Assembly: GCF_024758505.1 (NCBI RefSeq)
Contig: NZ_CP077970.1
Span: 2,914,001-2,978,000 of the forward strand
Direction: 5' to 3'
DNA: 64,000 bases
Origin: Bradyrhizobium arachidis
Lineage (GTDB): Bacteria; Pseudomonadota; Alphaproteobacteria; Rhizobiales; Xanthobacteraceae
Of the stretch, positions 48,579 through 63,956 are shown piece after piece (position 1 is the stretch's first letter; the number at the start of each line of letters is the position of its first letter). The notes under the pieces are model-generated. The model was not told the DNA's origin. It did no database searches and worked only from the letters and a program-made list of their open reading frames with translations. The translations under genes were made by a program, and so were the position numbers.

Positions 48579-49382
48579 ATGGGATTTTCGGACTATCGAA
48601 CGGCGTTGGTGACGGGCGCATCCTCGGGTATCGGGGCTGCGACGGTTCGGCGCCTCCGCGCCGAGGGGCTCGAGGTTCACGCGCTGGCGCGCGACGTTCG
48701 CCGGCTAGCAAGCCTGTCGGCCGAGACCGGATGCCACGCATGTGCCGTCGATGTGAACGATCTCGACGCCTTGATGCGACTTGCGAGCTCGGCCGAGTTC
48801 GACGTTCTCATCAACAATGCAGGCCAGTCGCGGCGCGGCAATATCCTGGATACTGCGCCTGATGATGTCGATACGCTGGTCGACGTCAACCTGCGCGCGG
48901 TCCTGCACCTGACGCGGCTGATCGCGCCAGGCATGGCGAGGCGCAATTGCGGTCACGTGGTCAATGTCTCGTCGATCGCCGGCCATTATGCCTTCGGTGA
49001 GAATGCGACGACATTCAACTCATCCGTGGCCTATCACGCAACGAAGGCGGGCATTCACTCGCTGTCGCAGCAGTTACGTGTCGATCTCTACGGGACCCGC
49101 GTTCGCGTCACCGAAGTATCGCCCGGACGCGTGGCGACGAGCATCTTTCAGAACCAGAACGCCGCCGACAATCCGGATGCCCGCTTCGTTGGGGCGTTCG
49201 AGACGCTCCAGCCCGAAGACATCGCGGATGCCATCGCGTTCGCGGTGGGGGCGCCGGCGCGGACGAACGTCGCGATGATCGAGGTCGTACCCACGTTTCA
49301 GGTCGTCGGCGAACTGCGATTCGCGAGGCGATTCGAGGCCGCGCGATTGAAAGAAATGAGAAGTGGAGCTGACAATGCCTGA
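48579..49382 (+). CDS. Short-chain dehydrogenase/reductase (paralogue of 61270 gene)
   Basis: A 267-residue SDR with cofactor motif TGASSGIGAATV near residue 12, NNAGQSRRG near residue 86, Ser in NVSSIAGHYAF near residue 130 and AYHATKAGIHSLSQQLR with catalytic Tyr and Lys near residue 152. It shares long identical stretches with the protein encoded at 61270-62028 in protein and DNA, so the two arose by duplication. It has four extra residues before the catalytic Tyr (NATTFNSS) relative to that copy. Its end overlaps the aminotransferase gene by 8 bp. Confidence 0.88.
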   Translation: MGFSDYRTALVTGASSGIGAATVRRLRAEGLEVHALARDVRRLASLSAETGCHACAVDVNDLDALMRLASSAEFDVLINNAGQSRRGNILDTAPDDVDTLVDVNLRAVLHLTRLIAPGMARRNCGHVVNVSSIAGHYAFGENATTFNSSVAYHATKAGIHSLSQQLRVDLYGTRVRVTEVSPGRVATSIFQNQNAADNPDARFVGAFETLQPEDIADAIAFAVGAPARTNVAMIEVVPTFQVVGELRFARRFEAARLKEMRSGADNA

Positions 49383-50577
49383 CCTCGCAAACCGCCTCAA
49401 GACCGTGAAGGTGTCGGCCTCGGCGGCGATGACGGACAAGGCGCGCGAGCTCCGTGACGCGGGCGTCAAGATCGTCGGCCTGTCGTCCGGGGAGCCCGAC
49501 TTTCCGACGCCGCCGCATGCGATCGATGCCGCGCATCGGGCGGCTCTTGCCGGCGACACCAAATATCCGGCGCAGCCTGGGACCGTCGCGCTCAGGACCG
49601 CGGTCCAGCGCAAGTTCAAGCGCGAGAACAATCTCGACTACGCCCTCGACGAGATCCTGATCGCCAATGGCGGCAAGCAAATCATCTTCAACGCGCTGTT
49701 TGCCACCTGCAATCCCGGCGACGAGGTGGTCATTCCAGCGCCCGGCTGGATCACCTACGCGGACATCGTGCTCCTTGCCGAGGCGACGCCTATTGCCGTG
49801 CCGTGCCCGGAGAACAACCAGTTCAAGCTCCGCCCGGCGGACCTGGAAGCGGCGATCACGCCCAGAACGAAGTGGCTGATCCTGAATTTTCCCAACAATC
49901 CGACCGGCGCGGCATGCACGCGCGAGGAGATGCGCGCGATCGCCGACGTCATGCTGAAATATCCCGACGTCTGGATCCTCACCGACGACATCTATGAACA
50001 CCTCACCTATGACGGGTTCGAGTTCTGCACCATCGCGGAGGTTGAGCCGAGGCTGAAGAATCGCGTCGTGACCGTCAATGGCGCGTCCAAGGCGTACGCC
50101 ATGACGGGCTGGCGGGTCGGCTATTGCGGTGGCCCAAAGGACCTGATCGCCGCCATGAACAATGTCCACGGTCAGGCGACCGGCGGAATCTGTACCCTGA
50201 GCCAGGCGGCGGCCGTCGCGGTCCTGGACGGCCCGCAAGAGTTCCTGAAGGAACGCGCGGACATCTATCGCGATCGGCGCGATCTGGTGGTCAAGCTCCT
50301 CAATCAGATCCCCGGCATCACTTGTCACAAGCCCCAGGGGGCATTCTACGTGTTTCCGAACATCGCCGGTTGCATCGGTAAGACCACAAAAGCCGGGCGG
50401 CGGCTGGAGACCGATGCCGACTTCATTTCGGCGCTGCTGGAAGAGCAGCATGTCGCCGCCGTGCCCGGCGGCGCCTACGGCATGAGCCCGTACTTTCGCA
50501 TTTCCTACGCGACCGATACCGAATCGCTGAGGGAAGGCTGCCGGCGCATCGCGAGCTTCTGCGAAAGCCTGCGCTGA
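49375..50577 (+). CDS. Class I aminotransferase (aspartate type)
   Basis: A 400-residue PLP enzyme, paralogous to the one at 39788. Motifs: LSSGEPDFPTPPHAID near residue 35, KYPAQPGTVALR, LNFPNNPTGAACT near residue 172, TDDIYEHLTY near residue 205, and the PLP lysine in NGASKAYAMTGWRVGYCGGP near residue 236. It overlaps the SDR gene upstream and precedes the polyamine-type importer by 220 bp. Probably transaminates the substrate of this second module. Confidence 0.9.
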   Translation: MPDLANRLKTVKVSASAAMTDKARELRDAGVKIVGLSSGEPDFPTPPHAIDAAHRAALAGDTKYPAQPGTVALRTAVQRKFKRENNLDYALDEILIANGGKQIIFNALFATCNPGDEVVIPAPGWITYADIVLLAEATPIAVPCPENNQFKLRPADLEAAITPRTKWLILNFPNNPTGAACTREEMRAIADVMLKYPDVWILTDDIYEHLTYDGFEFCTIAEVEPRLKNRVVTVNGASKAYAMTGWRVGYCGGPKDLIAAMNNVHGQATGGICTLSQAAAVAVLDGPQEFLKERADIYRDRRDLVVKLLNQIPGITCHKPQGAFYVFPNIAGCIGKTTKAGRRLETDADFISALLEEQHVAAVPGGAYGMSPYFRISYATDTESLREGCRRIASFCESLR

Positions 50578-50798
50578 CGGGCATCGAGATGTCAGGGGAG
50601 GGCTTGGCCCTGGCGGAGGACGATAGATGCAGCCAGCGGCGTTCGTCGATCAAGATCGGAGCAGTATGCCGAACCCATTGTCATAACCGTTCGTAATGCC
50701 CCTAAACGAAGATGTTCTTGGTCCTGTAGGATGCCGACGCATAAGCTTCGTGGAAAGAGGGGTAGGCCTTGGTATCGCGCAGTCGAGGACGGCCAGCG

Positions 50799-51731
50799 AT
50801 GACCACCAGCGAGGATGCGGTGGCGGTTTTGGGTGCCCAGGCTCCACCGGCGGCCCGGTGGGGATCGCGCTGGCGTCTGGCTTTGCCGGTCGGGCTCCTG
50901 GCCGTCCCGATGCTGGCATTCCTCGCGTACTTCTTCTTTTATCCAGCGATCCAGCTGTTGCTTTCGAGTATCCAGACGCAGGACAGTCGCGGTATCATCG
51001 GGCGCCCGTTCACGCTTGCGCACTACACACGTCTGATCAACGTCGAGCTTTACGCGCGCGTGCTTTGGACGACGCTGCGGATCAGCATCATCACCTCGGT
51101 GCTCGCGACGGTACTCGCCTATCCGGTCGCGCTGGTGATGGTCAAGAGCCGTCCGATGATCACGCGGATCATTACGCTGATCGTCATTGCGCCCTTGATC
51201 GTCAGTGTGGTCGTGCGCGGATATGGATGGCAGCTGATCCTTCAGAATGGTCCGAAGGGGATGTTGAACTGGATCCTCATGACGCTGCATGTCGTCGACG
51301 CGCCCTTGTCGGTTCTGTACACCGAAGCGGCCGTCGTCATTGGGTCGCTGCACGTGTTCTTCCCGATGATGGTTCTGCCGCTGGCGTCAGCGCTCGGCAA
51401 GATCGATCCCAACCTCGAAGACGCGGCCCGAATGCTCGGCGCGCCATGGTGGAGGGTGTTCCTCCGGGTGACGCTCCCATTGAGCATGCCCGGCTTCGTG
51501 GCGGGCTTTACCCTGGTATTTTCGCTCACCGCCGGCTCCTTCGTCATTCCCGCGATCCTGGGCGGCGCCTCGGCGGTCATGCTCGGTAACCTGATCGAGC
51601 AGCAGATCTTCGTCGTCTACGACTGGCCGTTTGGCGCCGCGATTGCCGTCGTTCTCGTCGGCCTCGTCCTCGCCATCAATGGCGTCTCGATGTGGCTGCT
51701 GGAAGGTCGGCGTCTCAGGAGGCCCGAGTGA
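50799..51731 (+). CDS. Polyamine-type ABC transporter permease 1 (PotB-like)
   Basis: A 310-residue permease. The first membrane segment is LPVGLLAVPMLAFLAYFFFYPAIQLLLSSI; the EAA loop is DPNLEDAARMLGAPWWRVFLRVTLP near residue 215. About six membrane segments. I start it at MTTSED; a frame ten codons longer starts at a GTG without support. Its stop overlaps the next start (ATG at 51731). First gene of the importer-pxp operon. Confidence 0.88.
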   Translation: MTTSEDAVAVLGAQAPPAARWGSRWRLALPVGLLAVPMLAFLAYFFFYPAIQLLLSSIQTQDSRGIIGRPFTLAHYTRLINVELYARVLWTTLRISIITSVLATVLAYPVALVMVKSRPMITRIITLIVIAPLIVSVVVRGYGWQLILQNGPKGMLNWILMTLHVVDAPLSVLYTEAAVVIGSLHVFFPMMVLPLASALGKIDPNLEDAARMLGAPWWRVFLRVTLPLSMPGFVAGFTLVFSLTAGSFVIPAILGGASAVMLGNLIEQQIFVVYDWPFGAAIAVVLVGLVLAINGVSMWLLEGRRLRRPE

Positions 51732-52534
51732 TGGACGAGCGATTTTCCGGCTTCGGCGCCTTCATCCTCTCCACGATCACCGCCGGCATGATGGTGTTCA
51801 TCCTGGCGCCGCTTCTCCTCGTCATGGCCGTGTCGGTCTCCGATTCCTATTTCGTGACGTTTCCTCCGCAAGGGTTCACGCTGAAATGGTATGCCAAGGT
51901 TCTCCAGGACCGCGACTTCCTCGAGGCGATGAGACTGAGCATCCTGCTTGCGCTCGGCACGACGGCGGGATCGCTGCTGCTCGGCGTGCCCGCCGCCTTT
52001 GCGCTGGTACGCGGCAACTTCTTCGGTCTGGCGGCGATCAAGGGGTTCTTGCTCTCGCCACTGATCTTCCCGGCACTGATAACAGGTCTGGCGCTGCTTC
52101 AGGTCCTGACCAAGCTTGGTTCCCAGGATGCGCGGCTCAATCTCCTGATCGGGCACGTGGTCGTGACATCGCCCTATGTCATCCGCACGGTCGTCACCAG
52201 CCTTCAGCTCGTGGACGAGAATCTGGAGGATGCCGCGCGCACGCTCGGGGCGAACCGGCTCACGACCTTCTGGCGTGTGACGCTGCCGCAGATCGCCTCC
52301 GGCGTCGCCGCCGGCGGCCTGTTCGCCTTCATGGTGTCGTTTGACAATTACCCGGTCACGATGTGGCTGGCGAACTCGGAATACTCGCCCGTGCCGCTCG
52401 TCCTGATGCGGCAACTGGTCAACGTCTTTGACCCTTCCGTGCCTGCGATGTCGACCATCATCATCCTCATGGCGATGGTTGGCGTCCTGTTGCTGGAGAA
52501 GCTGGTGGGCCTTCGCCGCGCGTTGGCCGCCTGA
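51731..52534 (+). CDS. Polyamine-type ABC transporter permease 2 (PotC-like)
   Basis: A 267-residue permease with six membrane segments, starting FGAFILSTITAGMMVFILAPLLLVMAVSVSD. The EAA loop is DENLEDAARTLGANRLTTFWRVTLP near residue 165. It pairs with the preceding permease to form the channel. The start ATG overlaps the last base of the previous gene. Confidence 0.88.
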   Translation: MDERFSGFGAFILSTITAGMMVFILAPLLLVMAVSVSDSYFVTFPPQGFTLKWYAKVLQDRDFLEAMRLSILLALGTTAGSLLLGVPAAFALVRGNFFGLAAIKGFLLSPLIFPALITGLALLQVLTKLGSQDARLNLLIGHVVVTSPYVIRTVVTSLQLVDENLEDAARTLGANRLTTFWRVTLPQIASGVAAGGLFAFMVSFDNYPVTMWLANSEYSPVPLVLMRQLVNVFDPSVPAMSTIIILMAMVGVLLLEKLVGLRRALAA

Positions 52535-52562
52535 TGTGCATTGGTAGATGGAGATTGAAATC

Positions 52563-53627
52563 ATGAACCTGACACGTAGGACTCTCATTAAAGCCGGTGC
52601 ATCCGCGGTTGCCTTCCCGACGATCATCAGCCGTTCGTGGGCGCAGGACGCCAAGCAACTGCATGTCGGCGTCTACAACTCGGCGCTCGGCAAACTGGTC
52701 CAGAAGGAGGTCATTCCCAAGTTCGAGGCCGAGTTCAAATGCCGCGTCTTCACGATCGAAGGCGCGACGCTCTCCAACATCGCCGCGCTGCGCGCGACCC
52801 GCGATACGCCGCGCTTCAGCATGATGATGATGGATGACGTCGGCATCCCCCAGGCCAAGCAGGAAGGGCTGATCGACAAGCTCGACGCGGCCAAAATTCC
52901 CAATCTCGCGAAGGTCTATCCGCGCTATCTCTTCGAGGACGGCTATGGCGTCGGCTTCTCGATCTCCAGCGCGGCCATGTTCATCAATCCGCAGGTGACG
53001 AAGCCGCTCGAGAGCTATGAGCAGATCTTCGAGGCAAAATATCGCAAGCAGATCCTGCTGAATACGCCCAAGAACACCCAGAGCGTGCTGATGCTCATCG
53101 TGGCGACGGCGCTCACGACGGGCAAGCCACTGAAGGAGGCGCAATACCTCGTCGATAGCGGCTGGGACAAGCTCGCTGCGCTCAAGCCCAACGTCCTGAC
53201 GATTTACGACAGCGAGGCGCAGGTGCTGCAGGTGGCCCAGGGCCAGGCGACGATCGGCGGCATCGAATATTCCAAGGCGATCTATCCGCACACGGCCAAG
53301 GGCATGCCGATCGACATGACCTTCCCCAAGGAAGGCGCGTTCACCGGCATCAACAGCATGACTCTGGTCAAGAATGCGCCCGAGCCCGAGCTCGCGTGTG
53401 CCCTGATCAACCGCATTCTGGAGCCATCGGTCGCCAAGATGCTGTCCGAGCAGACGCTCAGCGCGCCCTCGGTCGGCGGCATCGACTTCAAGCCGGAAAC
53501 GGCCAAGTTCCTTGCCTATCCGGACACCAAGGCGACCGATCTCGGGCTGTTCACGCCGGACTGGAAGTTCATCGTTCCGCGCCGCGGGCCGTGGCTGGAG
53601 CGTTATAATCAGGTGTTCACAAGCTGA
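52563..53627 (+). CDS. Polyamine-type ABC transporter binding protein
   Basis: A 354-residue periplasmic binding protein of the spermidine/putrescine (PotD) class. The N-terminus MNLTRRTLIKAGASAVAFP, with cleavage near SWAQD, is a twin-arginine-type leader. The mature part starts KQLHVGVYNSALGKLVQKEV. I start it at MNLTRR; an ATG five codons upstream is possible. The ligand is unknown, and the pxp genes that follow suggest 5-oxoproline or a related lactam rather than a polyamine. Confidence 0.87.
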   Translation: MNLTRRTLIKAGASAVAFPTIISRSWAQDAKQLHVGVYNSALGKLVQKEVIPKFEAEFKCRVFTIEGATLSNIAALRATRDTPRFSMMMMDDVGIPQAKQEGLIDKLDAAKIPNLAKVYPRYLFEDGYGVGFSISSAAMFINPQVTKPLESYEQIFEAKYRKQILLNTPKNTQSVLMLIVATALTTGKPLKEAQYLVDSGWDKLAALKPNVLTIYDSEAQVLQVAQGQATIGGIEYSKAIYPHTAKGMPIDMTFPKEGAFTGINSMTLVKNAPEPELACALINRILEPSVAKMLSEQTLSAPSVGGIDFKPETAKFLAYPDTKATDLGLFTPDWKFIVPRRGPWLERYNQVFTS

Positions 53628-53637
53628 GCAGGCTGCC

Positions 53638-54732
53638 ATGAAGTCTTCCGAAGTCAGGCTCGATCGCCTCAGCAAGAACTACACCCGCATGGTCGCGGTC
53701 GACGAGGTGTCGCTCGCGATCGAGCCGGGTCACATGGTCGCGCTGCTCGGTCCGAGCGGATGCGGCAAGACGACATGCCTCCGCATGATCGCGGGGCTGA
53801 TCCGTCCGACATCCGGCGATGTCTTCGTGAACGACAAGAGGATGACCGACGTTCCGGTACATCGGCGCAACGTCGGGATGCTGTTCCAGAACTACGCGCT
53901 GTTTCCTCATCTGACCGTCGAGGAGAACATCGCATTTGGCCTCGAGATGCGCGGGATAGCCAAGGCGGATGCGGCAAGGAAGGTGAGCGAAGCCCTCAAT
54001 CTCGTCCAGTTGTCCAGCTTCGGAAAGCGCTATCCGTCGCAGCTCTCGGGCGGCCAGCAACAGCGCGTCGCACTGGGGCGGGCCCTGGTGATCGAGCCGG
54101 CGATGCTGCTGCTCGACGAGCCGCTGGGAGCGCTGGACAAGGGACTCCGCGAAAGCATGCAGGTCGAGCTGCGCGCCCTTCAGCGCAGGCTCGGCCTGAC
54201 CACCATCATGGTGACCCACGATCAGGACGAAGCCCTGACCATGGCGGACAAGATCGTGGTGATGCGCGATGGCAAGCTCGAGCAGGTCGGCTCGGCCACT
54301 GAGATCTACCAGCGGCCGGCCTCGAAGTTCGTTGCGCAGTTCATCGGTGCCTCAAATCTGTTCGAGGGCCCCGTCGAGCAGCGCAACGGCAGCGGAGCGG
54401 TCATTCGTGTCTCGCCCGAGTTGAGCCTTCAGGTTGACCGGATACCGCCGTCGGCGAACGACGTGATGGTCTCGATCAGGCCCGAGGCGATCGTGGTCGA
54501 GAGGGCCGGGCAGAATCCGGCGGCCCAACGCGCGAACAGCGTGATGGCGCGCGTCGACCAGGCGATCTATCGCGGATTCGTCAGCCACTACTACCTCAAG
54601 ACGCCGAGTGGCGGACAGATCATCGTGTTCGAGCAAAATCAATCGCAGCACGCGGGACTTCGATACGCGGTGGGCGAGGAGGTCATCGCGCGGTGGGAGT
54701 CTCCCAGCAATCACGTTATCGCTCGTCATTGA
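53638..54732 (+). CDS. Polyamine-type ABC transporter ATPase (PotA-like)
   Basis: A 364-residue ATPase. Walker A GPSGCGKTT near residue 39, FQNYALFPHLTVEENI, signature LSGGQQQRVALGRAL near residue 136, Walker B MLLLDEPLGALDKGLRE, switch His in VTHDQDEAL, and a C-terminal TOBE domain (VSIRPEAIVVE). It starts 10 bp after the binding protein gene. A frame extending upstream into that gene is not supported. Confidence 0.9.
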   Translation: MKSSEVRLDRLSKNYTRMVAVDEVSLAIEPGHMVALLGPSGCGKTTCLRMIAGLIRPTSGDVFVNDKRMTDVPVHRRNVGMLFQNYALFPHLTVEENIAFGLEMRGIAKADAARKVSEALNLVQLSSFGKRYPSQLSGGQQQRVALGRALVIEPAMLLLDEPLGALDKGLRESMQVELRALQRRLGLTTIMVTHDQDEALTMADKIVVMRDGKLEQVGSATEIYQRPASKFVAQFIGASNLFEGPVEQRNGSGAVIRVSPELSLQVDRIPPSANDVMVSIRPEAIVVERAGQNPAAQRANSVMARVDQAIYRGFVSHYYLKTPSGGQIIVFEQNQSQHAGLRYAVGEEVIARWESPSNHVIARH

Positions 54733-54867
54733 AATGCGAGCCGCGTAACTCATGGGAAGCGATCGACATCGCTTATACCCGCAGATGAACATCGTCTTGG
54801 ATCGAGCTCGGCTGTTTGGCTAGCTTTGGGCGGCGGCCGCGTCGTGACCTGCACGTCGAATTGCGAG

Positions 54868-55569
54868 ATGTCCTTGTCGATCAATCACCCCGCTGCACCC
54901 TTTGTCGGCGCGATAGAGAAAAGCCCGAAGATCAGCCTGATCGGCACGCTGGCGATGCTGATCGAGGCGCCGGGCGACTTTGATCTGGTTCAGCAGGGAC
55001 GCGTCTGGGCTCTGGCCGATGTGCTGTCGTCCTGGCCGAATGTCGAGGAAGCTGTCATTGGCGTCACCAATGTGATGCTGGTCTTCGAGCAGCCGCCCGA
55101 CGATATCGGAGTGGTCAGCGCTTCGATCGTCGAGTTGTGGCATCGCCTGCCGAGCCGCAAGGCGGACGGCAAGATGATCGAGATTCCCGTCGTCTACGGT
55201 GGCGAGCACGGGTTCGATTTGCCTGCGGTCGCTACGCGCGTGGGATTGTCCGAACGCGACGTGATCAGGATTCACAGCGACGGCGAATATACGGTCTGCG
55301 CGGTCGCGAGCTCGCCGGGGTTCGGCTACCTCCATGGTCTCGATCCGCGCATCTACATGCCCCGAAAGTCCGTACCCTCGCTGAACATGATTGCGGGATC
55401 GGTCACCATTGGCGGGATGCAGACCGGTGTCGCGGTCCTGACCAGTCCGAACGGGTGGAATGCGATCGGCTGGGCCTCGGTTACGTCGTTCGATCCGCAA
55501 CGAGCACAGCCGTCTCTCATGCTGCCGGGTGACCGTGTCAGGTTCAGGATCGATCGGATCGAGCTGTGA
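54868..55569 (+). CDS. pxpB: 5-oxoprolinase subunit B (KipI/AHS1 family)
   Basis: A 233-residue subunit of the PxpABC 5-oxoprolinase. The family blocks are present: IEIPVVYGGEHGFDL near residue 105, then SPGFGYLHGLDPRIYMPRKSVPSLNMIAGSVTIGGMQTGV near residue 150 and NGWNAIGWAS near residue 195. I start it at MSLSINH; an upstream TTG is weaker. It overlaps pxpC by 4 bp. A second pxpB lies at 58738. Confidence 0.88.
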   Translation: MSLSINHPAAPFVGAIEKSPKISLIGTLAMLIEAPGDFDLVQQGRVWALADVLSSWPNVEEAVIGVTNVMLVFEQPPDDIGVVSASIVELWHRLPSRKADGKMIEIPVVYGGEHGFDLPAVATRVGLSERDVIRIHSDGEYTVCAVASSPGFGYLHGLDPRIYMPRKSVPSLNMIAGSVTIGGMQTGVAVLTSPNGWNAIGWASVTSFDPQRAQPSLMLPGDRVRFRIDRIEL

Positions 55570-56543
55570 TCGAGATCCTGACCAGCCACGCGTTCAATAC
55601 CGTTCAGGATCATGGCCGACGTGGCGCGCGTCACCTCGGTGTGAGCATGTCCGGTGCCATGGATCCCGTCGCGCTCGAAGCCGGCAATGCGCTGCTCGCG
55701 AACGATCGCGATGCCGCCGGCATCGAAATCCAGACGTTTCCCTTCCGCCTGCGCTTTTTGTCCGACACCGCGTTCGCGCTCACAGGCGCCGATCACGAGT
55801 CGACACTGGCGGGATCATCCGTTCGGCCGTGGTGGTGCACACGGGCGAAGGCGGGCGACATTCTCGCGATCGAGACTCCCCGGCGCGGTGCGCGCGTCTA
55901 CGCGACGTTCGGCGGCGGCATCGATGTTCCGCGCGTGCTTGGCTCGCGCAGTACGCATCTGCGCGCCGGCTTCGGTGGGTTCGATGGACGTACCTTGCAG
56001 GCGGGCGATGTCGTGCCGATCGGGAGCACGCAGGGCAAGAGCGACGGGCGCTTCGACTTCGGCGTCGCGCCGCCGGATGTCGCGATCGCGGGCGCTGCTT
56101 CAGCGGAAGACCGTGTGCTGCGGATACGCGTGATGCGGGCCGGCGAGTATGATCTGTTTTCGGAGGCGATGCAGACAACGTTCTGGTCCACCACATGGAA
56201 GATCAGTGCCCGGAGCGATCGGGGCGGCTACCGCCTCACCGGCGGCAACCTGACATTGGACGCACCGGTCGAGATGCGCTCGCATGGCGTCGTGGCCGGC
56301 GTCGTGCAGGTGCCGCCGGCCGGCGAGCCGATCATCCAGATGAGCGATGCCAATACGGCAGGCGGTTATCCGAAGATGGCCGCCGTGATCGAGGCCGATC
56401 TCTGGCGCCTCGGTCAGGCGCCGCCGGGGTCATTCATCGCCTTCAGCGAGGTGAGCTACCAGGCCGCGGTCGCGGCCATGGCTCCCGTCAACGACTATCT
56501 CGCGAAGTTGCGAGCGACCGCGGACCTCTATCGAGCGCTTTGA
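55566..56543 (+). CDS. pxpC: 5-oxoprolinase subunit C (KipA/AHS2 family)
   Basis: A 325-residue KipA-family protein. Diagnostic blocks: VQDHGRRGARHLGVSMSGAMDPVALEAGNALLAND near residue 13, TFGGGIDVPRVLGSRSTHLRAGFGGFDGRTLQAGD near residue 118, and the C-terminal GGYPKMAAVIEADLWRLGQAPPG near residue 265. It starts at GTG overlapping the stop of pxpB. It pairs with PxpB in the complex that opens 5-oxoproline with ATP. Confidence 0.9.
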   Translation: MIEILTSHAFNTVQDHGRRGARHLGVSMSGAMDPVALEAGNALLANDRDAAGIEIQTFPFRLRFLSDTAFALTGADHESTLAGSSVRPWWCTRAKAGDILAIETPRRGARVYATFGGGIDVPRVLGSRSTHLRAGFGGFDGRTLQAGDVVPIGSTQGKSDGRFDFGVAPPDVAIAGAASAEDRVLRIRVMRAGEYDLFSEAMQTTFWSTTWKISARSDRGGYRLTGGNLTLDAPVEMRSHGVVAGVVQVPPAGEPIIQMSDANTAGGYPKMAAVIEADLWRLGQAPPGSFIAFSEVSYQAAVAAMAPVNDYLAKLRATADLYRAL

Positions 56544-56578
56544 GTGGACGTGAACAAGAACAAGAGCAGGGTGCGAAC

Positions 56579-57346
56579 ATGAAAATCGGCATCAATTCAG
56601 ACATGGGCGAAGGTTTTGGCAATTATCGCATCTGCGATGACGAGGCGCTGATGAGTATCATCTCGTCCGCCAACGTGGCGTGCGGCTTCCATGCCGGTGA
56701 TCCCATCATCATGGATCGTATGGTCCGCTTGGCGAAGCAGAAGGGAGTCGAGGTCGGCGCCCATCCGGGCCTGCCCGATCTGCTCGGATTTGGCCGCCGC
56801 GTGATCCAGATGGATGCCGCCGAACTCGAGAAGCACATGGTCTATCAGATCGGCGCCTTGCAGGCGATCGCGGCCAATGCCGGCCACCGCGTGACCCATG
56901 TCAGCTTCCATGCCGCGATGGGCAATATGGTGAATGCGGATCCCGACATGGCCGACGTCGTCGCCCGCGCCATTGCGACCATCAATCGCGATTTCATTGT
57001 TTTCTCGCAGCCCGACGCCGAGATCGTGCGCGCCGCGCGCAAGGTCGGCCTGCGCGTCCTGACGCTGTTCCTGGCCGATCGTGCCTATGACGAGAACGCC
57101 CATCTGGTGTCCCGTAAGCTTCCGAACTCCGTCATTACCTCTTCGGAGGCCGTGGCCGAGCGGGTCAAGCGCTTTCTGGACAGCGGAACGGTGAAGACCA
57201 TCGAGGGCAAATCGATCAAGGTCGAGGCACGCTCCATCCTGATCCACAGCGACACGCCTGGATCGGTCAATCTCGCCGGCACGGTGCGCCGCGTGATCGA
57301 GCAGGGCGGCGGCGAAGTCACGCCCGCAACCGTTTTGCTCAATTGA
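56579..57346 (+). CDS. pxpA: 5-oxoprolinase subunit A (LamB/YcsF family)
   Basis: A 255-residue PxpA. Diagnostic blocks: INSDMGEGFGNYRICDDEALM at the start, ANVACGFHAGDPIIMDRMVRLAKQKGVEVGAHPGLPDLLGFGRR near residue 36, RVTHVSFHAAMGNMVNADPDMA near residue 105, and IEVLVHSDTPGS-like ILIHSDTPGSVNLA near residue 220. Together with PxpB and PxpC upstream it completes a 5-oxoprolinase. Its 3' end overlaps the last 8 bases of the convergent carrier-like gene. Confidence 0.92.
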   Translation: MKIGINSDMGEGFGNYRICDDEALMSIISSANVACGFHAGDPIIMDRMVRLAKQKGVEVGAHPGLPDLLGFGRRVIQMDAAELEKHMVYQIGALQAIAANAGHRVTHVSFHAAMGNMVNADPDMADVVARAIATINRDFIVFSQPDAEIVRAARKVGLRVLTLFLADRAYDENAHLVSRKLPNSVITSSEAVAERVKRFLDSGTVKTIEGKSIKVEARSILIHSDTPGSVNLAGTVRRVIEQGGGEVTPATVLLN

Positions 57347-57773
57347 TCGGGCTGCTCTCGGCCTGCGGGCGGATGCGCACAATCGGTGTGCCGTAGCCGA
57401 CGGTGGCGCCGGTCTCCGCGATCACGGCATCGACGGTGCCGGCAGCCGGCGCAACGATGGGTGCATACAATAATCCAATCTGGACCAGGCCGACGATCGC
57501 GCCGGCCTCGACGCGCTGGCCGGGCGCGACGAACGGCTGGTCCCGCCAGGGATGAGCCGCAAGGAAATGTCCTGCAACATCGGCTTTCGCAACGACGGCG
57601 TGATCTCTGGGAGGGGCGGTCGCGGCGGCAAGCGTTGCAGATGCAGCCATTCGGGCGCCCCTGTCCACGACGAGCTTCAGGGACAGTCCCGGCTCCTCGA
57701 TCTCGATCGCGTCGACGCCGGACCTTTCGAGGATCTGCGCCAGACGCGTGATATCGGTCATCTCTATCGGCAT
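57339..57773 (-). CDS. Biotin-carrier-like protein lacking the biotin lysine
   Basis: A 144-residue protein with the layout of acetyl-CoA carboxylase carrier protein: an N-terminal 35 residues like AccB (DITRLAQILERSGVDAIEIEEPGLSLKLV), a linker rich in Ala and Pro, and a biotinyl-type domain FVAPGQRVEAGAIVGLVQIG onward with GTVDAVIAETGATVGYGTPIVRI. The motif EAMK that takes biotin is absent: aligned to the true carrier at 60752, Glu-Ala-Met-Lys becomes Gln98-Ile-Gly-Leu101. It overlaps pxpC (57764) by 10 bp and lies at the end of the accBC-pxpBC operon. The fold is kept but biotinylation at that site cannot occur, so it may be structural or regulatory. Confidence 0.8.
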   Translation of the reverse strand: MPIEMTDITRLAQILERSGVDAIEIEEPGLSLKLVVDRGARMAASATLAAATAPPRDHAVVAKADVAGHFLAAHPWRDQPFVAPGQRVEAGAIVGLVQIGLLYAPIVAPAAGTVDAVIAETGATVGYGTPIVRIRPQAESSPIN

Positions 57774-58741
57774 GTTCGGATCTCCTCGACAAGACGCACG
57801 TTGGTCCTTAGCCGATCGAGATAGGCCGACATCTCGTCCTCGGCTGCAAGCGCATCGGCGTAGGCGGTTTGCTCGAACCGCAGCTTTCCGCCGAGCCGCG
57901 CCTGCCCGACGCGCCACAGGTCGGCCCGGATCACGGTCGCGATCTTCGGATAGCCGCCGGACGTCTGCGCGTCGCGCATCTGGATGATGGGCTGTCCATT
58001 CGGCGGGATCTGGATGACGCCGGGGACGATGCCGTGCGAGCGCTTCTCGATCGGCGCCTTCGGCTTCACGGCGGGGCCTTGCAGGCGGTAGCCATAGCGG
58101 TTGCTTTGCGGCGTGATCTTCCACCTGCTGGACCAGAACAGCGCCTGCGTGGCGGCATCGAACCCGTCATATTCGCCGGCGATTACGACCCTCACGATGG
58201 TCTCGTCCGCGGTAGCGTTCGACCGCGCCAGGGTGATCTCGGCCGGTTCGACTCCGAGTTCGCCGATGGTCGCGGTAGACGCGGCGCAGGGCAGGATGTC
58301 GCCGGGCTGGAGCGGCCGTCCGTGCAAGCCGCCGAATTCGCCGCGAAACTGCGTGCTGCGCGAGCCCAGCACCATGGGCACGTCGATGCCGCCGCCGACG
58401 GTCAGATAGCTTCGTGCGCCGTGGGACATCGCCCTGATGTTCAAGATATCTCCCGCGCGGGCGTGCAACCGCCACCATGGCGGGATTGCGCGTCCTGCGA
58501 TCTCGGCCTCGATACCGGCGCCGGTGAGCGCAAAGGCCATGTCGCGACCGAACCGGAGGCGGAACGGCATCATCGGGATTTCGACGCCGGCGGCGTTCTC
58601 GTTGTTGCCGAGAACGATGTTGCCGGCGCGCAGGGCGACGTCGTCCATCGCACCCGACGTGCCGACCCCGGAGCGATACTGGTCGAAGCGGCCGAGATCC
58701 TGGACGCTGGCGGGACCTGTGACTGACAGGATCTCGATCAC
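57764..58741 (-). CDS. pxpC: Second KipA/AHS2 (PxpC-like) subunit
   Basis: A 325-residue KipA-family protein, paralogous to that at 55566: VQDLGRFDQYRSGVGTSGAMDDVALRAGNIVLGNNENAAGVE near residue 12, TVGGGIDVPMVLGSRSTQFRGEFGGLHGRPLQPGD near residue 118 and GGYPKIATVIRADLWRVGQARLGG near residue 262. It starts at GTG overlapping the stop of the PxpB-like gene. Found with biotin carboxylase and carrier genes, so it may serve as the carboxyltransferase half of a split urea-carboxylase-type enzyme rather than in 5-oxoprolinase. Confidence 0.88.
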   Translation of the reverse strand: MIEILSVTGPASVQDLGRFDQYRSGVGTSGAMDDVALRAGNIVLGNNENAAGVEIPMMPFRLRFGRDMAFALTGAGIEAEIAGRAIPPWWRLHARAGDILNIRAMSHGARSYLTVGGGIDVPMVLGSRSTQFRGEFGGLHGRPLQPGDILPCAASTATIGELGVEPAEITLARSNATADETIVRVVIAGEYDGFDAATQALFWSSRWKITPQSNRYGYRLQGPAVKPKAPIEKRSHGIVPGVIQIPPNGQPIIQMRDAQTSGGYPKIATVIRADLWRVGQARLGGKLRFEQTAYADALAAEDEMSAYLDRLRTNVRLVEEIRTCR

Positions 58742-59400
58742 CGGATCACCCGTTCGATCTCGAAACGGATCGTATCGCCCGGCGCGAGCGCGGCCGGCGT
58801 GGGCCAGGACGGGTCGAAGAACGTCCAGCTCGTATGTCCGATGGCGTGCCAGCCGCTGGGGCCGGGCGAGGCGGAGACGCCGGTCTGCGATCCGCCGATC
58901 GACACTGAGCCGCCCGCGGAGCGCTGCAACGGCGTCTGGCGCCGCGGCATGGTGATGCGCGGGTCCATGCCGCCGAGGTAGCAGTAGCCGGGATGGCTCC
59001 CGAGCGCGAACACGGTGTAGAGCGGCGCGGCGTGGATCGACACCACGTCGTCGACGGACAGGCCGCAATGATCGGCGACCGACTGAAGCGACGATCCAAT
59101 CTCGCCGCCGTAGGTGACGGGCAGCCTGATTTCGCGGCCACCGATCGCAAGGCTTTCCGCCTCGTCCCAGCCGTCGTTGAGGGCGGCGACCAGGGTGTCC
59201 AGCTCGCGGGGAGGCGTCTCGAAGGTCAGCATCAAATTGGTGATGCCGGGGATGGCCTCGCGAATATCAGGCCATTTCGATGCGGTGGCCGCCAACGCCC
59301 AGATGCGCCGCTGATGCGGCAGGTCGAACGCGCCTGGCGCCTCGAACAGGAGGGCTGATGTCCCGAGCAGGCTGATCCGCGGCCGGTCCGGCGCCGTCAT
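58738..59400 (-). CDS. pxpB: Second KipI/AHS1 (PxpB-like) subunit
   Basis: A 220-residue KipI-family protein, with [25 protein letters not shown] near residue 92, [41 protein letters not shown] near residue 138 and [15 protein letters not shown] near residue 180. The start overlaps the stop of the biotin carboxylase gene (59397) by 4 bp, so the four genes accB, accC, pxpB, pxpC are coupled. Confidence 0.88.
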
Positions 59401-60752
59401 TGCGCGGCCACCCCCGCATTCATCCAGTGTTCGAGATGATGGATGTCGTAGCCGCCGCGGCAGAACGTCGGATCTGCCAGGATCGCCTGATGCAGCGGCA
59501 CATTGGTTCGGACGCCTTCGGCACGCAATTCGGACAAGGCAACGCGTGCGCGGGCCAGAGCCTCGTCGCGGGTGCCGCCATAGGCGATGAGCTTGCCGAT
59601 CAGTGAGTCATAGTGACGGGGAATGTTCGCGCCGGCAGTGATATGCGAATCGACGCGGATGCCGATACCACCCGGCAGGTCCCAGCGCGTCACGGTGCCG
59701 GGAGAGGGCGCGAAGCTGGTGGGGTCTTCGGCGTTGATGCGGAACTCGACCGCATGGCCGACACGCGCAATGTCGCCTTGCGCGATCCCCAGCGCATCGC
59801 CCCGGGCGATGCAAATCTGTTCCTTGACGATGTCGATCCCCGTCGTCATCTCGGTGACGGGATGCTCCACCTGGACGCGCGTGTTCATCTCGATGAAGAA
59901 GAATTGCCCGTCCTCGTAGAGGAATTCGAAGGTGCCGGCGCCGCGATAGCCGATCCGCCGGCAGGCTTCGACGCAGCTTGCGCCCACCCGCTCGATCAGC
60001 GCGCGGTCGATGCCGGGCGCGGGAGCTTCCTCGACGACCTTCTGGTTCCTGCGCTGGAGCGAGCAGTCGCGGTCGCCGAGCCAGAGATGATTGTCGTGCT
60101 GATCGCACAGCACCTGAATCTCGATATGGCGGGGCTTTTCGAGGAATTTCTCGATGTAGACCGCAGCGTTCCTGAAGGCCTTGCTCGCTTCCGCGCGGGT
60201 CAGCGCAAGCGCCTCGTCCAGTGCGCCTTCGTTGCGCACGATCCGCATGCCGCGCCCGCCGCCGCCACCGGCGGCCTTGATGATAACAGGATATCCGATG
60301 TCTCGCGCGATCGTGCGCACTTCCGCCGGATCATCCGGCAGGGCGCTGTCCGGCCCGGGCACGCAGGGCACGCCTGCCATCCGCATCGCGCGTTTGGCCG
60401 CGACCTTGTCGCCCATGGTCCGGATACACTCCGCGGGAGGGCCGATGAAGGTGAGACCGGCGCCTGCGACCCGTTCGGCGAACTCTGCACTCTCCGAGAG
60501 AAACCCGTAACCCGGGTGGATCGCCTGGGCGCCGCTGACCTCGGCCGCGAGCAGGATCGCCGCCACGTTGAGATAGGTGCTGCTCGCCGGCGCCGGCCCG
60601 ATGCAGAGCGCCTGATCGGCAAGCGCGACATAGCGCGCCTCGTTATCCGCCTCCGAGTGAATGACGACCGTCTTGAGACCCATGGCCCGACAGGCGCGCT
60701 GGATGCGAAGCGCGATCTCGCCGCGGTTGGCGATCAGGACCTTGTCGAACAT
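59397..60752 (-). CDS. accC: Biotin carboxylase subunit (AccC-like)
   Basis: A 451-residue ATP-grasp biotin carboxylase. Motifs: [36 protein letters not shown] at the start, [19 protein letters not shown] near residue 115, the glycine-rich ATP loop [23 protein letters not shown] near residue 160, [56 protein letters not shown] near residue 275, and [16 protein letters not shown]. Full length, all catalytic blocks present. It is a second AccC-type gene with pxp partners, not the acetyl-CoA carboxylase locus. It overlaps accB by 1 bp. Confidence 0.92.
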
Positions 60753-61273
60753 CAGGATGATCCCGCAGGACCGATCCGGAACAGGGCTTGCCCCGCTTCG
60801 ATCTCGTCACCGTTCTCCGCGAGGACTGCAAGCACGACACCCGGCACCTCGGCGGCGATATCGATGAAGGTCTTCATCGCCTCGATGATGCATATCTTCT
60901 GCCCGGCCTCGATCCTCGCGCCGACCTCGACCAGCGGCGGCTCGTCCGGCGCCGCAGACCGGTAGAAAACGCCATGCATCGGCGCGGGCACGACAACGTC
61001 CGCGGTGGCCGAGGCGGTCGCTTCGTGAGCGGGCCTCTCCTGGCGATCGGGGGCGGGGGCCTGCGTGCTGTCCCTGCTTGAAGGCTGTGCCGGGACCGGG
61101 GGCGCTGCCGCAGACGCACGCTTGAGGATGCGAATGCGGGTTCCGTCCTGCGTGAGATCCAGCTCCGCGATGGAAGAGCGCGCAACCAGATCCACGAGTT
61201 GTTCGATCTTGGGGAGGTCCACGGTCACGCTCCGCGTTGACGGCCTGTCGGATTCGGGGCGCTCATGCGTCAC
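60752..61273 (-). CDS. accB: Biotin carboxyl carrier protein (AccB-like)
   Basis: A 173-residue carrier. Residues 20 to 52 resemble AccB ([20 protein letters not shown]), a Pro-Ala linker covers residues 55 to 90, and the C-terminal biotinyl domain has the biotin lysine in [18 protein letters not shown] (Lys134). The gene lies between the SDR gene, whose stop overlaps its start by 4 bp, and accC. It can carry carboxybiotin for the split carboxylase of this operon. Confidence 0.9.
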
Positions 61274-62028
61274 TCTGCCGGCGGCCGGCTCTTCTGTGCG
61301 AAATTGAGCCCGCCGACGACTTGCTGGGTCGGCAGGACTTCGAGGAAGGCGACATTCATGCGCGCCGGCGATCCAACCGCGAATGCGATCGAATTGGCGA
61401 TGTCCTCGGGCTGGAGTGAATCATAGTCGTCGAAGAAGCGGCGCTTGGCTTCGGCCAGATCACCCAGCAGCCGTCCGAACACCTCCGTCTCGACCCGGGC
61501 CGGCGATATCTCGGTGACGCGAACCCTGGTTCCGTAGAGGTCAACGCGCAATTGCTGCGACAACGAATGAATGCCCGCTTTGGTGGCATGATACACGGTG
61601 TTTCCGCCGCCAAACGCGTAGTGGCCGGCGATGGAGGAGATGTTGACGACATGGCCAAGGTCGCGGCGCGCCATGCCCGGCACGATCAGCCGCGTCAGAT
61701 GCAGCACCGCGCGCAGATTGACGTCGATGAGCGCATCGACATCCTCCGGCGTCGTGTCCAGGATATTGCCGCGCCGGGACTGGCCGGCATTGTTGACCAG
61801 GACGTCGAACTCGGCCGACTTCGCCAGGGCCGCGAGCGCGTCGAGGTCGCTGATATCCACAGCGCAGGCGTGGCATCCGGTCTCCGCGGATAAAGCGCTC
61901 AGGCGAGCGGCGTCGCGTGCCACGGCGTAAACTTGGAGCCCTTCCGCGCTCAGGCGGCGAACCGTCGCAGCCCCGATCCCCGAGGACGCGCCCGTCACCA
62001 GCGCCGTTCGATAGTCCGAAAATCCCAT
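61270..62028 (-). CDS. Short-chain dehydrogenase/reductase (paralogue of 48579 gene)
   Basis: A 252-residue SDR with cofactor motif TGASSGIGAATV near residue 12, NNAGQSRRG near residue 86, Ser in NISSIAGHYAF near residue 130 and VYHATKAGIHSLSQQLR with catalytic Tyr and Lys. The first 25 codons are almost the same at DNA level as in the gene at 48579. First gene of the accB-accC-pxpB-pxpC operon, divergent from the LysR gene at 62213; the intergenic region holds an ATA-N9-TAT site. Confidence 0.88.
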   Translation of the reverse strand: MGFSDYRTALVTGASSGIGAATVRRLSAEGLQVYAVARDAARLSALSAETGCHACAVDISDLDALAALAKSAEFDVLVNNAGQSRRGNILDTTPEDVDALIDVNLRAVLHLTRLIVPGMARRDLGHVVNISSIAGHYAFGGGNTVYHATKAGIHSLSQQLRVDLYGTRVRVTEISPARVETEVFGRLLGDLAEAKRRFFDDYDSLQPEDIANSIAFAVGSPARMNVAFLEVLPTQQVVGGLNFAQKSRPPAE

Positions 62029-62169: not shown

Positions 62170-62212
62170 CGCTGTTGGATTGCTCTCTGCCTGGATATCC
62201 GGAGGCTCCGTA

Positions 62213-63187
62213 TTGGACACCAAACGTTTGGAGGCTTTCATCAAGGTCGTGGATCTCGGCAGCATGACGAGCGCGGCGAAGGTGCTGAATGTCGCGCAGC
62301 CGGCCCTGAGCCAGCACATTGCGAGCCTGGAGGCTGATTTCAAATGCAAGCTGCTCGACCGCAGCGCCCGCGGGGTCAAGCCCACCGAGGCCGGACGAAT
62401 CCTCTATCGCTATGCCAAGTCGATCCAGCGGCAGATCGAGGAGGCCAGGCGCACCATTCTGGACAACAAGCCGGAGTTGACCGGCAACGTCACGATCGGC
62501 CTGGCCCCACTCAGCTCAGCGGCATTGCTCGCGACGCCGCTGCTGATGCAGGTCCGTGAACGCTTTCCCGGCATCGTGCCGCACATTTACGACAGCTCCG
62601 GGATCATGCTCAGCGAAATGATGCTGAAGGGGAGCATGGATATGGCTGTCCTCTACGGCGAGCGCCCGGTGACCGGTCTCGATTACAAGCCGCTGATGCG
62701 CGAATACTTTTACCTTGTCGCACCCCGCAGCATGTATCCGGAGCAGATGCCTCCGGAGGAAGTTTCGGCGGCGGAGGTCGCGCAATTCGACCTGCTTCTC
62801 CCATATCGGGAATCCTTCCTGCGACAGACGGTCGAGCGGGTCTGCGCGGAGGTGGGGCTCCGCCCGCGCATCGTCGCCGAGATCCATTCCCAATCGACCC
62901 TCTCTTCGGCGATTGCAGCCGGAGTGGGGGCGGCCGTGCTGCCCATGTCGATCGCAAAGGAGTTGCCGAACCTCGACGAGCTCTGCATTCGGCGGATCGA
63001 TGCGCCGTCGGCCTCGCAGCAGATGTCGCTATGCATTTCCGATAACGCTGCCTTGTCCGACGCCGCATTCGCTGTTTACAAGATATTGCTCGAGATCATC
63101 GTCAAGACCTGGGGGCAGTTCGATTGTCCCCCCGGTTCGGCCGCCATCGCTGCGTCGCCGCTGAATGTCCCGAAGGACGAGCCATAA
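62213..63187 (+). CDS. LysR-family regulator (Nac/Cbl-like)
   Basis: A 324-residue regulator with helix-turn-helix DTKRLEAFIKVVDLGSMTSAAKVLNVAQPALSQHIASLE, and effector domain starting GNVTIGLAPLSSAALLATPLLMQVRE. It is clearly paralogous to the regulator at 41111. The TTG start is chosen because GGAGG lies 8 bp upstream and homology begins there. It is divergent from the accB-pxp operon and probably controls it. Confidence 0.87.
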   Translation: MDTKRLEAFIKVVDLGSMTSAAKVLNVAQPALSQHIASLEADFKCKLLDRSARGVKPTEAGRILYRYAKSIQRQIEEARRTILDNKPELTGNVTIGLAPLSSAALLATPLLMQVRERFPGIVPHIYDSSGIMLSEMMLKGSMDMAVLYGERPVTGLDYKPLMREYFYLVAPRSMYPEQMPPEEVSAAEVAQFDLLLPYRESFLRQTVERVCAEVGLRPRIVAEIHSQSTLSSAIAAGVGAAVLPMSIAKELPNLDELCIRRIDAPSASQQMSLCISDNAALSDAAFAVYKILLEIIVKTWGQFDCPPGSAAIAASPLNVPKDEP

Positions 63188-63284
63188 CGAAACACGATGT
63201 GGCAATCCTAAAATCTGAAATTCTCCGATGTGAGACGGTCGACTATCTCAGGTGAAGCGCAGATTGCGGACCCTTGGAGGGACC

Positions 63285-63956
63285 ATGGTTCACGTTGTCA
63301 GAACATTCGATCGGCCTGGTGCAGACCTCGTCGAGCGCATCAAGCAGTTTCCTCCATCCACTCTTCACGAGGCTCAGGGGCGATCGGGTGCGCTGACCTC
63401 CCGCATCAAGCCGATCTATTCCGGGATGCGCGCCTGCGGGCCGGCGCTGACGGTGAGTTGCCATCCGGCCGACAACATGATGTTGATCACGGCGATTTCG
63501 CTGGCCAAGCCGGGCGACGTGCTCGTGGTGAGCGCGGGCGATCATCCCGAGCAGGGCGGCTTCGGCGAGGTGCTGGCGACGGCCTGCGTTGCCAAGGGCA
63601 TCGTCGGCCTGGTCACCGATGCCGGCGTTCGCGACGGTCTGGCGGTGCGCGACACCGGCTTCAACGTCTTCTCCTACGGCCTGTGCATGAAGGGCACCGT
63701 CAAGGAGACCCTCGGCTACATCAATCAGCCGATCGTCATCGGCGGAATTGCCGTCCGCCCCGGCGATATCGTGAGTGCCGACGACGATGGAGTCGTCATC
63801 GTGCCGAAGGAGAACATCGCCGACGTCTGCGTCAAGTCGGCGGCGCGCGAGGAGAAGGAAGCCGGCGTGATGAAGGCGCTCAAGGCCGGCGGCGACATCC
63901 TCGAACTCTCCGGCATCGGCAAGGTGCTGGAGTCCAAGGGCTGCACCTTCGCCTGA
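63285..63956 (+). CDS. RraA-family aldolase (4-hydroxy-4-methyl-2-oxoglutarate aldolase-like)
   Basis: A 223-residue protein of the RraA/HMG aldolase family. Blocks: STLHEAQGRSGALTSRIKPIYSGMRACGPALTVSCHPADN near residue 25, GDVLVVSAGDHPEQGGFGEVLATACVAKGIVGLVTDAGVRD near residue 77 (with the conserved Gly-Gly-x-Gly-Glu and VTDAGVRD, which bind metal and pyruvate), and RPGDIVSADDDGVVIVPKE near residue 160. I start it at the ATG after TTGGAGGGA; an in-frame GTG 11 codons upstream is weaker. Possible pyruvate-forming aldolase step of the pathway. Confidence 0.85.
   Translation: MVHVVRTFDRPGADLVERIKQFPPSTLHEAQGRSGALTSRIKPIYSGMRACGPALTVSCHPADNMMLITAISLAKPGDVLVVSAGDHPEQGGFGEVLATACVAKGIVGLVTDAGVRDGLAVRDTGFNVFSYGLCMKGTVKETLGYINQPIVIGGIAVRPGDIVSADDDGVVIVPKENIADVCVKSAAREEKEAGVMKALKAGGDILELSGIGKVLESKGCTFA

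Follow-up and report, generated by a model that had tools for sequence, protein, structure and literature searches.

Gene content and conserved linkage

The window, a stretch of 64,000 nucleotides from the 9.43-Mb genome of Bradyrhizobium arachidis, carries a minus-strand operon of overlapping genes in the order SDR-BCCP-BC-PxpB/KipI-PxpC/KipA-CARR2 (Table 1). Counted from the SDR/BCCP junction, successive genes share 4, 1, 4, 4 and 10 bases, the last overlap being that of PxpC and CARR2, a second carrier-like protein. Genes, frames and order agree with the original prediction for this DNA. A PxpB-PxpC-PxpA set (54826-57346) on the plus strand, which lies outside the region that prediction covered (57339-61273), converges on the operon, and the 3' ends of PxpA and CARR2 overlap by 8 bases. 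The window carries two PxpB/PxpC pairs, the second at 54826-56543. An ABC transporter, the gene order of which is conserved, is encoded on the same strand; its binding protein was identified by Pfam, and the permeases and the ATPase were named by eye from their translations.

Table 1. Features of the locus, with bit scores and the cut-offs of the models.
Feature	Coordinates	Strand	Details
Aspartate-aminotransferase-like PLP enzyme	49363-50577	+	
ABC transporter	50769-54732	+	two permease-like frames; binding protein 52548-53627; ATPase from about 53632
Second PxpB	54826-55569	+	TIGR00370 176.6 bits (cut-off 145.55); start codon uncertain
Second PxpC	55566-56543	+	same clade as PxpC of CARR2 operons
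PxpA (LamB/YcsF), last gene of convergent operon	56579-57346	+	NF003814 332.8 bits (cut-off 226)
CARR2, lysine-less AccB paralogue (pseudo-carrier)	57339-57773	-	144 aa, ATG; Leu101, His74-Pro75, V125-G-Y-G128
PxpC/KipA-type carboxyltransferase subunit	57764-58741	-	PF02626; TIGR00724 314.5 bits (cut-off 230.2)
PxpB/KipI-type carboxyltransferase subunit	58738-59400	-	PF02682; TIGR00370 168.2 bits (cut-off 145.55)
BC, biotin carboxylase (AccC-like)	59397-60752	-	TIGR00514 651.1 bits (cut-off 626.5)
True BCCP, E-A-M-K motif	60752-61273	-	173 aa, GTG start; TIGR00531 120.2 bits (cut-off 115.2)
SDR, short-chain dehydrogenase, first gene of operon	61270-62028	-	
LysR regulator, NAC-like	62195-63187	+	303.7 bits, just under cut-off 309; start codon uncertain
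RraA-family 4-carboxy-4-hydroxy-2-oxoadipate aldolase/oxaloacetate decarboxylase	63252-63956	+	NF006731 220.1 bits (cut-off 179)

The same set of genes turns up across alpha-, beta- and gammaproteobacteria, in the last on one plasmid. BC and PxpA were each present in 35 of the 37 CARR2 loci, and matches to the SDR (33/37), the aminotransferase (32/37) and the NAC-like LysR regulator (31/37) were nearly as frequent. A survey of PxpC covered all but two partial ones of 81 places, several stretches ending at contig ends (e.g. L105, L116, L126). At the 48 PxpC places without BC, no carrier of either kind was found.

An RraA-like gene is not specific to CARR2 loci, as 34 of the 48 PxpABC-only loci have one as well, at 30-38% identity. 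CARR2 loci gave 22 RraA hits, of which 10 reached only 31-34% and 12 at least 53%; 7 of the latter were at 94% or above, as would suit the window plus six loci orthologous to it.

A carrier family without the biotin lysine

Residues 98-102 of CARR2 (Q-I-G-L-L) align without gaps to E-A-M-K-T of the BCCP in the window, which places Leu101 at the position of the biotin lysine, as originally predicted. On the BCCP model TIGR00531, CARR2 scores 47.4 bits, below the cut-off of 115.2. It is nevertheless an AccB paralogue at full length, in which the N-terminal region, the barrel and a thumb-length loop are kept. A CARR2 profile aligned to two parts of E. coli AccB (4hr7_B), the N-terminal one with an i-Evalue of 1.7e-4 and the barrel with one of 4.5e-13; with the CARR2 sequence of the window alone, the N-terminal match was weak (7.9 bits). 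Among PDB structures, the predicted CARR2 model came closest to 1bdo, the biotinyl domain of E. coli, with an rmsd of 1.2 across 75 columns and 27% identity.

Lysine does not occur at position 101 in any of 176 distinct family members, the protein of the window included, nor in any of the 120 matches listed out of 178 found, while it is there in each of the 51 sequences for which the BCCP model is the better fit. Orthologues with a lysine at this site, which had been named as evidence against the original prediction, were thus not found among the 176, and the loss is family-wide, not a local mutation. The expected conservation of Gln98-Leu101 held only as regards this absence: Gln98 is found in 34/176 members and Leu101 in 108/176, and the shared trait is the missing lysine. 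In the BCCP/CARR2 site comparison, two of 36 CARR2 rows (L021, L041) were gapped at the site, where other alignments give L and P. As position 98 is a lysine in 117/176 members, CARR2 might be modified there, or elsewhere, and still work as a carrier. We consider this very improbable, since the CARR2 of the window has Gln98, 59/176 members have a residue other than lysine, and the position lies three residues ahead of that of the BCCP lysine.

In the carrier tree, the 34 CARR2 rows fell on one side of a single branch (support 100/100); this tree was built without the CARR2 proteins of L021, L090, L098 and L041 (domain borders off, long open frames) and without carriers below 60 bits. His74 is invariant (176/176), Pro75 occurs in 175/176 and Gly128 in 170/176 members. 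The dN/dS ratio over 21 pairs was 0.273 for CARR2 compared to 0.268 for BCCP; CARR2 is under purifying selection and evolves as slowly as the true BCCP. Although the loss of the one catalytic lysine would also suit a decaying, functionless gene copy, this explanation is contradicted by a dN/dS equal to that of BCCP and by the invariance of His74 across 176 distinct members, and we regard it as practically untenable. The conservation of CARR2 as a lysine-less protein therefore makes a structural or regulatory subunit the best reading, and its retention, intact, in many bacteria suggests a structural role and not that of a carrier. This agrees with the structural subunit proposed originally, for which the plant protein BADC is a precedent.

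Searches of genomes with single proteins miss distant members: genome G018 was missed, yet the PxpC survey finds a CARR2 there (L100). Alignment A1, used as a class-wide profile, matched 364 of 385 genomes and was not used for distribution because it also finds ordinary AccB; a profile scan of the genomes' contigs with alignment A2 gave three loci, one of which (L035) was dropped, as its protein looks like a lipoyl E2 protein.

Descent of the biotin carboxylase and carboxyltransferase parts

The original prediction took the operon for a five-part urea carboxylase. The two systems do share a BC, a carrier and a KipI/KipA-type carboxyltransferase, and a multi-gene biotin carboxylase with such a carboxyltransferase, here of PxpB/PxpC type, is supported. 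However, urea carboxylase is a fused chain, whereas the genes are separate here, and to our knowledge it has neither a second carrier nor a PxpA. The BCs of CARR2 operons form one clade (34 rows, support 100/98), which adjoins housekeeping AccC, represented by two rows only, and stands apart from the fused urea carboxylases. Likewise, the PxpCs of CARR2 operons have a clade of their own (99/100), apart from both urea carboxylase and plain PxpABC, in a tree that took 12 of the 48 PxpABC-only rows and left out 36. PxpB and PxpC of the operon score nearer to PxpABC than to urea carboxylase, the PxpC reaching 314.5 bits on the general model and 298.4 on the PxpC model compared to 175.6 on the urea carboxylase model. 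Together with PxpA at nearly all CARR2 loci and the second PxpB/PxpC pair, these results speak against the urea carboxylase assignment.

The locus resembles PxpABC 5-oxoprolinase in having homologues of PxpA, PxpB and PxpC, the first two over their curated cut-offs. On the PxpC model NF045499 (cut-off 500 bits), the two PxpCs of the window score 298.4 and 286.6. The first exceeds the plain PxpCs that this genome also encodes, at 212.0 and 252.7 bits; since these fall short of 500 bits as well, the threshold cannot separate the two kinds in this case. Unlike the 48 PxpABC-only places surveyed, the operon has BC and BCCP, and its PxpC belongs to a separate clade. PxpB and PxpC of PxpABC are assumed to phosphorylate the lactam, according to PMC13274462. 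The operon probably marks a biotin-dependent lactam-type breakdown route that is distinct from both plain PxpABC and urea carboxylase.

AccC (TIGR00514) and AccB (TIGR00531) over their cut-offs link the operon to heteromeric acetyl-CoA carboxylase, and the AccB/AccC lineage is the likely source of BC, BCCP and CARR2. A pure acetyl-CoA carboxylase role, which would have refuted the original prediction, is nevertheless unlikely because the carboxyltransferase genes are PF02626/PF02682 and not AccA/AccD; the operon also differs in having two carriers.

Nine further loci with separate BC, BCCP and Pxp-type carboxyltransferase genes resemble the CARR2 operons in this respect, but have one carrier and no CARR2. 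Their BCs and PxpCs form clades of their own, the BCCP motif is E-V-M-K, PxpA is present and an aminotransferase is not linked. Two of these loci were inspected for PxpB, and both have a divergent copy; the single one compared with NCBIfam models was closer to urea carboxylase (120.8 bits) than to PxpB (78.3).

Proposed role of the pseudo-carrier

Overall, we lean, with confidence just on the favourable side of even, towards a biotin-dependent carboxylase of several subunits that acts on a lactam-like nitrogen compound, and in which CARR2 is a BADC-like non-catalytic subunit. With ATP and bicarbonate, BC would charge the biotin of BCCP with a carboxyl group, which would pass to the substrate amide via a PxpB/PxpC pair, of which the genome offers two alternatives. 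PxpA would then open the activated lactam, and the aminotransferase and the RraA-type aldolase might process the amino-acid product onward. CARR2 would have arisen from a duplicated AccB by loss of the biotin lysine, its thumb-length loop now carrying the invariant histidine, and may bind BC and/or BCCP and hold them on the Pxp carboxyltransferase, as BADC would. We infer complex formation, this glue role, N-carboxylation and the substrate class.

The glue subunits of some bacterial acyl-CoA carboxylases are small proteins not known to be related to BCCP. As described in PMC11926652, such non-catalytic subunits assemble and activate the biotin carboxylase, and plant BADC, reported there as unique to the plant enzyme, acts as glue for BC-BCCP, lacks the AMKL motif and shares 25-30% identity with BCCP, a distance similar to that of CARR2 from the E. 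coli biotinyl domain. With no lysine in 176 members and with the fold and architecture of AccB, CARR2 is, like BADC of the plastid heteromeric acetyl-CoA carboxylase, a BCCP paralogue family-wide without the biotin lysine that accompanies a genuine BCCP and a BC of AccC type, and that might help assembly. Unlike BADC, it is bacterial, has the invariant His74 and shares its operon with a carboxyltransferase of Pxp type, not with AccA/AccD. In the open-access papers searched, we found plant BADC as the only precedent and no bacterial lysine-less carrier subunit; PMC11077971 offers no precedent, as the carrier there is fused and biotinylated.

CARR2 could instead be an inhibitory decoy, as the original prediction also allowed, standing in for BCCP, either on BC or within the carboxyltransferase, and throttling the enzyme as its own level rises. 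Its complete AccB architecture would permit this, and in vivo studies at first suggested inhibition by BADC; in reconstitution and genetics, BADC acts as glue (both from PMC11926652), and the 10-base overlap couples CARR2 to PxpC as it would an ordinary subunit. We consider a decoy quite unlikely.

The assembly role is not required by every BC-BCCP-PxpC set, which counts against it: the nine one-carrier loci lack CARR2, and two CARR2 loci deviate. One of these, L032, keeps both carriers; it was rejected as a minimal BCCP-BC-CARR2 core, its BC being merely a 24-residue remnant. The other, L067, has CARR2 and PxpA/B/C, with no BC or BCCP match within the stretch, and an AccBC pair and a fused carboxylase are all that its genome (G815) offers. 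L067 would fit a CARR2 that belongs to the carboxyltransferase/PxpA side, where the substrate or Pxp proteins would be bound by His74 together with the V-G-[YF]-G loop and no dedicated BC would be needed. The conservation of His74 and Gly128 and the position of CARR2 directly beside PxpC or PxpB in many operons are consistent with this; however, CARR2 is missing from the 48 PxpABC-only places surveyed, and in L040, L041 and L044 it directly follows BC, apart from PxpB/PxpC, neither of which was found in the 14-kb stretch of L044. Such a placement seems unlikely to us.

Returning to the BADC-like subunit, a bolder and rather doubtful version would make CARR2 an independently arisen counterpart of BADC, an adaptor that re-targets an acetyl-CoA-carboxylase-type BC/BCCP to PxpBC through a re-purposed thumb with its invariant histidine. 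In lineages without a dedicated BC/BCCP, such as G815, it may lend housekeeping AccBC to lactam breakdown.

Lysine-less BCCP paralogues are described as unique to the plant enzyme in PMC11926652. The wide conservation of such a family in bacteria, as part of another carboxylase, would mean that pseudo-carriers serve more generally in building or re-targeting biotin enzymes, and the CARR2 operon offers a bacterial system for testing the glue idea. Our results also correct annotation, as databases list many CARR2 proteins as acetyl-CoA carboxylase or as biotin carboxyl carrier protein though they are without the usual biotin site.

The lysine-less carrier and its family

In the window, six head-to-tail genes on the minus strand encode a short-chain dehydrogenase (SDR), a biotin carboxyl carrier protein (BCCP), a biotin carboxylase (BC), PxpB/KipI, PxpC/KipA, and another carrier, termed CARR2 below, with successive overlaps of 4, 1, 4, 4, and 10 bases. 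A convergent plus-strand set comprises parts of an ABC transporter, a further copy each of PxpB and PxpC, and finally PxpA, the end of which overlaps that of CARR2 by 8 bases. The genome is a single contig of 9.43 Mb. While the BCCP scored above the curated BCCP cut-off and carries the motif E-A-M-K, CARR2 remained below it (47.4 bits versus 115.2) and has Q-I-G-L at this place.

A protein search with CARR2 yielded 178 proteins; all named close relatives among the matches listed belong to Bradyrhizobium. In the best 120 of the 178, window protein included, position 101 (CARR2 numbering), which aligns with the biotin lysine, was Leu in 95, Arg in 21, Gln in 3, Val in 1, and Lys in none. Together with new matches from a profile search (best 120 of 451) and 31 locus sequences, these formed a set of 176 distinct proteins (L 108, P 32, R 21, Q 3, A 3, E 3, H 3, S 2, V 1, K 0). 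His74 and Gly68 were invariant (176/176 each), Pro75 was found in 175/176 and Gly128 in 170/176; Lys98, present in 117/176, is missing from the window protein. We also sorted sequences of the fetched loci with BCCP and CARR2 models, both derived from loci of the kinds being sorted. Lys occupied the site in 51/51 distinct sequences scoring better on the BCCP model, among which are two AccB of the housekeeping type and a handful of weakly matching carrier or lipoyl domains of other kinds, and in none of the CARR2-type sequences. Judged by these alignments, the absent biotin lysine is a trait of the CARR2 family. Another carrier-like protein, on a Rhodococcus opacus plasmid (L051), has Thr (by eye) at the expected place of Lys, and a BC match is absent from the 12 kb stretch around it; this actinobacterial case may be separate from CARR2.

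Coordinates of the features discussed
Feature	Sequence	Position	Strand	Remarks
CARR2	window	57339-57773	-	144 aa
Caprolactamase/hydantoinase-like pair	window	within 42213-47516		NF050156 531 bits, NF050157 208 bits, cut-off 1000 each
SDR and HpaI-type aldolase (below cut-off)	window	within 42213-47516		with the pair
SDR paralogue	window	48579-49382		
SDR paralogue	window	61270-62028		
CARR2 with PxpA/B/C, aminotransferase, NAC-type regulator, transporter	L067 (genome G815)	1837-10931		
BCCP, BC remnant, CARR2	L032	7986-9002		BC remnant of 24 residues
Carrier-like protein	L051	5704-6252		
Hydantoinase/oxoprolinase-like pair (by eye)	L094	stretch start to 3583		adjoins one-carrier locus

Distribution and genomic companions

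The gene order on both strands is shared with six other genomes of the genus, identified in a search in which CARR2 occurred at E <= 1e-10 in 7/100 genomes, its own included. More distant loci were found in Bradyrhizobium, Rhizobium, Sinorhizobium, Agrobacterium, Shinella, Phyllobacterium, and Mesorhizobium, and further in Bosea, Microvirga, Terrarubrum, Burkholderia, Variovorax, and one Pseudomonas plasmid. CARR2 is rare in evenly drawn genome samples: single-query searches, which overlook distant members, detected it in 5/398 genomes of the phylum and, with another query, in 4/199 of the order (own genome included in both). Across 37 CARR2 loci (window included; stretches of unequal length), BC and PxpA were each present in 35, SDR in 33, and an aminotransferase in 32; a NAC-type regulator accompanied 31 and an RraA-like gene 22. 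The CARR2 locus is a unit.

As a control, we surveyed 81 PxpC places in 60 genomes, 79 of which were retrieved together with some 6 kb of flanking sequence per side, or less where a contig ended. These comprised 7 fused chains, 48 PxpABC stretches without BC or carrier, 9 in which BC accompanied a single K-type BCCP (one-carrier loci), 4 further stretches containing BC and weak carrier matches, and 11, representing 7 loci, with BCCP and CARR2. By this sorting, CARR2 is not a general companion of Pxp genes and is dispensable for some BC-BCCP-PxpC sets; it marks one subtype of such systems. In this survey, an aminotransferase accompanied 7/7 CARR2 loci (paired stretches of a locus pooled), 0/9 one-carrier loci, and 0/48 PxpABC-only loci.

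PxpB was detected in 0/9 one-carrier loci at the BLAST threshold, and Pfam revealed a divergent PxpB in both of two examined. In one of these loci, L097, the urea carboxylase model gave the higher score both for PxpB (120.8 bits, versus 78.3 on the PxpB model) and for PxpC (235.2 versus 223.6 on the PxpC model); the window PxpC scored 298.4 bits on the PxpC model versus 175.6 on urea carboxylase. These one-carrier loci (L082, L088, L094, L096, L097, L099, L102, L103, and L106) represent another type of split system, composed of BC, E-V-M-K BCCP, PxpC, and PxpA, in clades of its own and without CARR2.

Origin of the parts

The CARR2 structure model has a mean pLDDT of 79.6, with block means of 93-97 across residues 61-130, and its top structural match is the E. 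coli biotinyl domain 1bdo (rmsd 1.2, 75 columns, 27% identity). A profile from 36 CARR2 proteins matched E. coli AccB (4hr7_B) in both the N-terminal region (i-Evalue 1.7e-4) and the barrel (4.5e-13). In the carrier tree (n=80, several long branches flagged), a branch with support 100/100 separates the 34 CARR2 rows from all others. dN/dS over 21 pairs from seven orthologous loci was 0.273 for CARR2, 0.268 for BCCP, and 0.094 for BC, with no sign of decay of CARR2. CARR2 is an AccB paralogue under constraints of its own.

In a BC tree of 56 rows, 34 CARR2-operon BCs form one clade (100/98) beside the only two housekeeping AccC rows (midpoint root), and one-carrier BCs and fused urea carboxylases each occupy their own clades. 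In the PxpC tree, one clade (99/100) holds 39 PxpC rows from CARR2 loci, both window-locus copies included, together with L067; plain PxpABC, one-carrier, and fused forms fall outside it. These data are most simply explained if a Pxp-type carboxyltransferase was combined with an AccB/AccC pair, AccB was duplicated, and one of the copies lost its lysine.

Proposed role and contrary cases

For the ordinary PxpABC system, PMC13274462 presumes that the lactam is phosphorylated by PxpB/PxpC and opened by PxpA. Here, BC and BCCP would supply a carboxyl group in place of phosphorylation, as urea carboxylase does; since they could do so, a lactam or amide is likely carboxylated and then opened on PxpA. 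A 4-hydroxylated glutamate-type product would match both the aminotransferase linked to these genes and the window's CHA-aldolase-type RraA, a weak substrate guess of low probability; the RraA link is not specific to CARR2 loci, RraA-like genes also occurring at PxpABC-only loci. Such genes (30-38% identity) lie near ordinary PxpABC in 34/48 of these, such as L112-L117.

Judging from its sequence, CARR2 is unable to bear biotin at the established position. Its His-Pro aligns, in the profile comparison with 4hr7_B, within a stretch that we take to be the thumb of E. coli BCCP. According to PMC11926652, thumb residues of BCCP are important in E. coli and the plant BADC proteins perturb the BCCP thumb; in the same paper, non-catalytic glue subunits are mentioned for some bacterial acyl-CoA carboxylases. 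Like CARR2, BADCs are lysine-less BCCP paralogues, belonging to plastid acetyl-CoA carboxylase of plants, whereas CARR2 is bacterial; among the papers retrieved, such paralogues were described in plants only. By analogy with BADC, CARR2 would be expected to keep BC and BCCP joined to each other or to tether them to the carboxyltransferase.

Two loci count against this glue function. In the L067 stretch, no BC or BCCP match was found, and G815 encodes an AccBC pair and a fused carboxylase elsewhere; either this locus borrows AccBC by way of CARR2 or CARR2 acts with the Pxp side alone. In L032, the BCCP and CARR2 frames are intact, with only a BC remnant between them.

Upstream in the same island, the caprolactamase/hydantoinase-like pair and its neighbours are predicted to represent a second, unrelated ATP-dependent lactam-opening type. 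Two SDR paralogues, 73% identical by BLAST, flank the lactam genes, and the six orthologous loci have a similar SDR (61-72%) on the far side.
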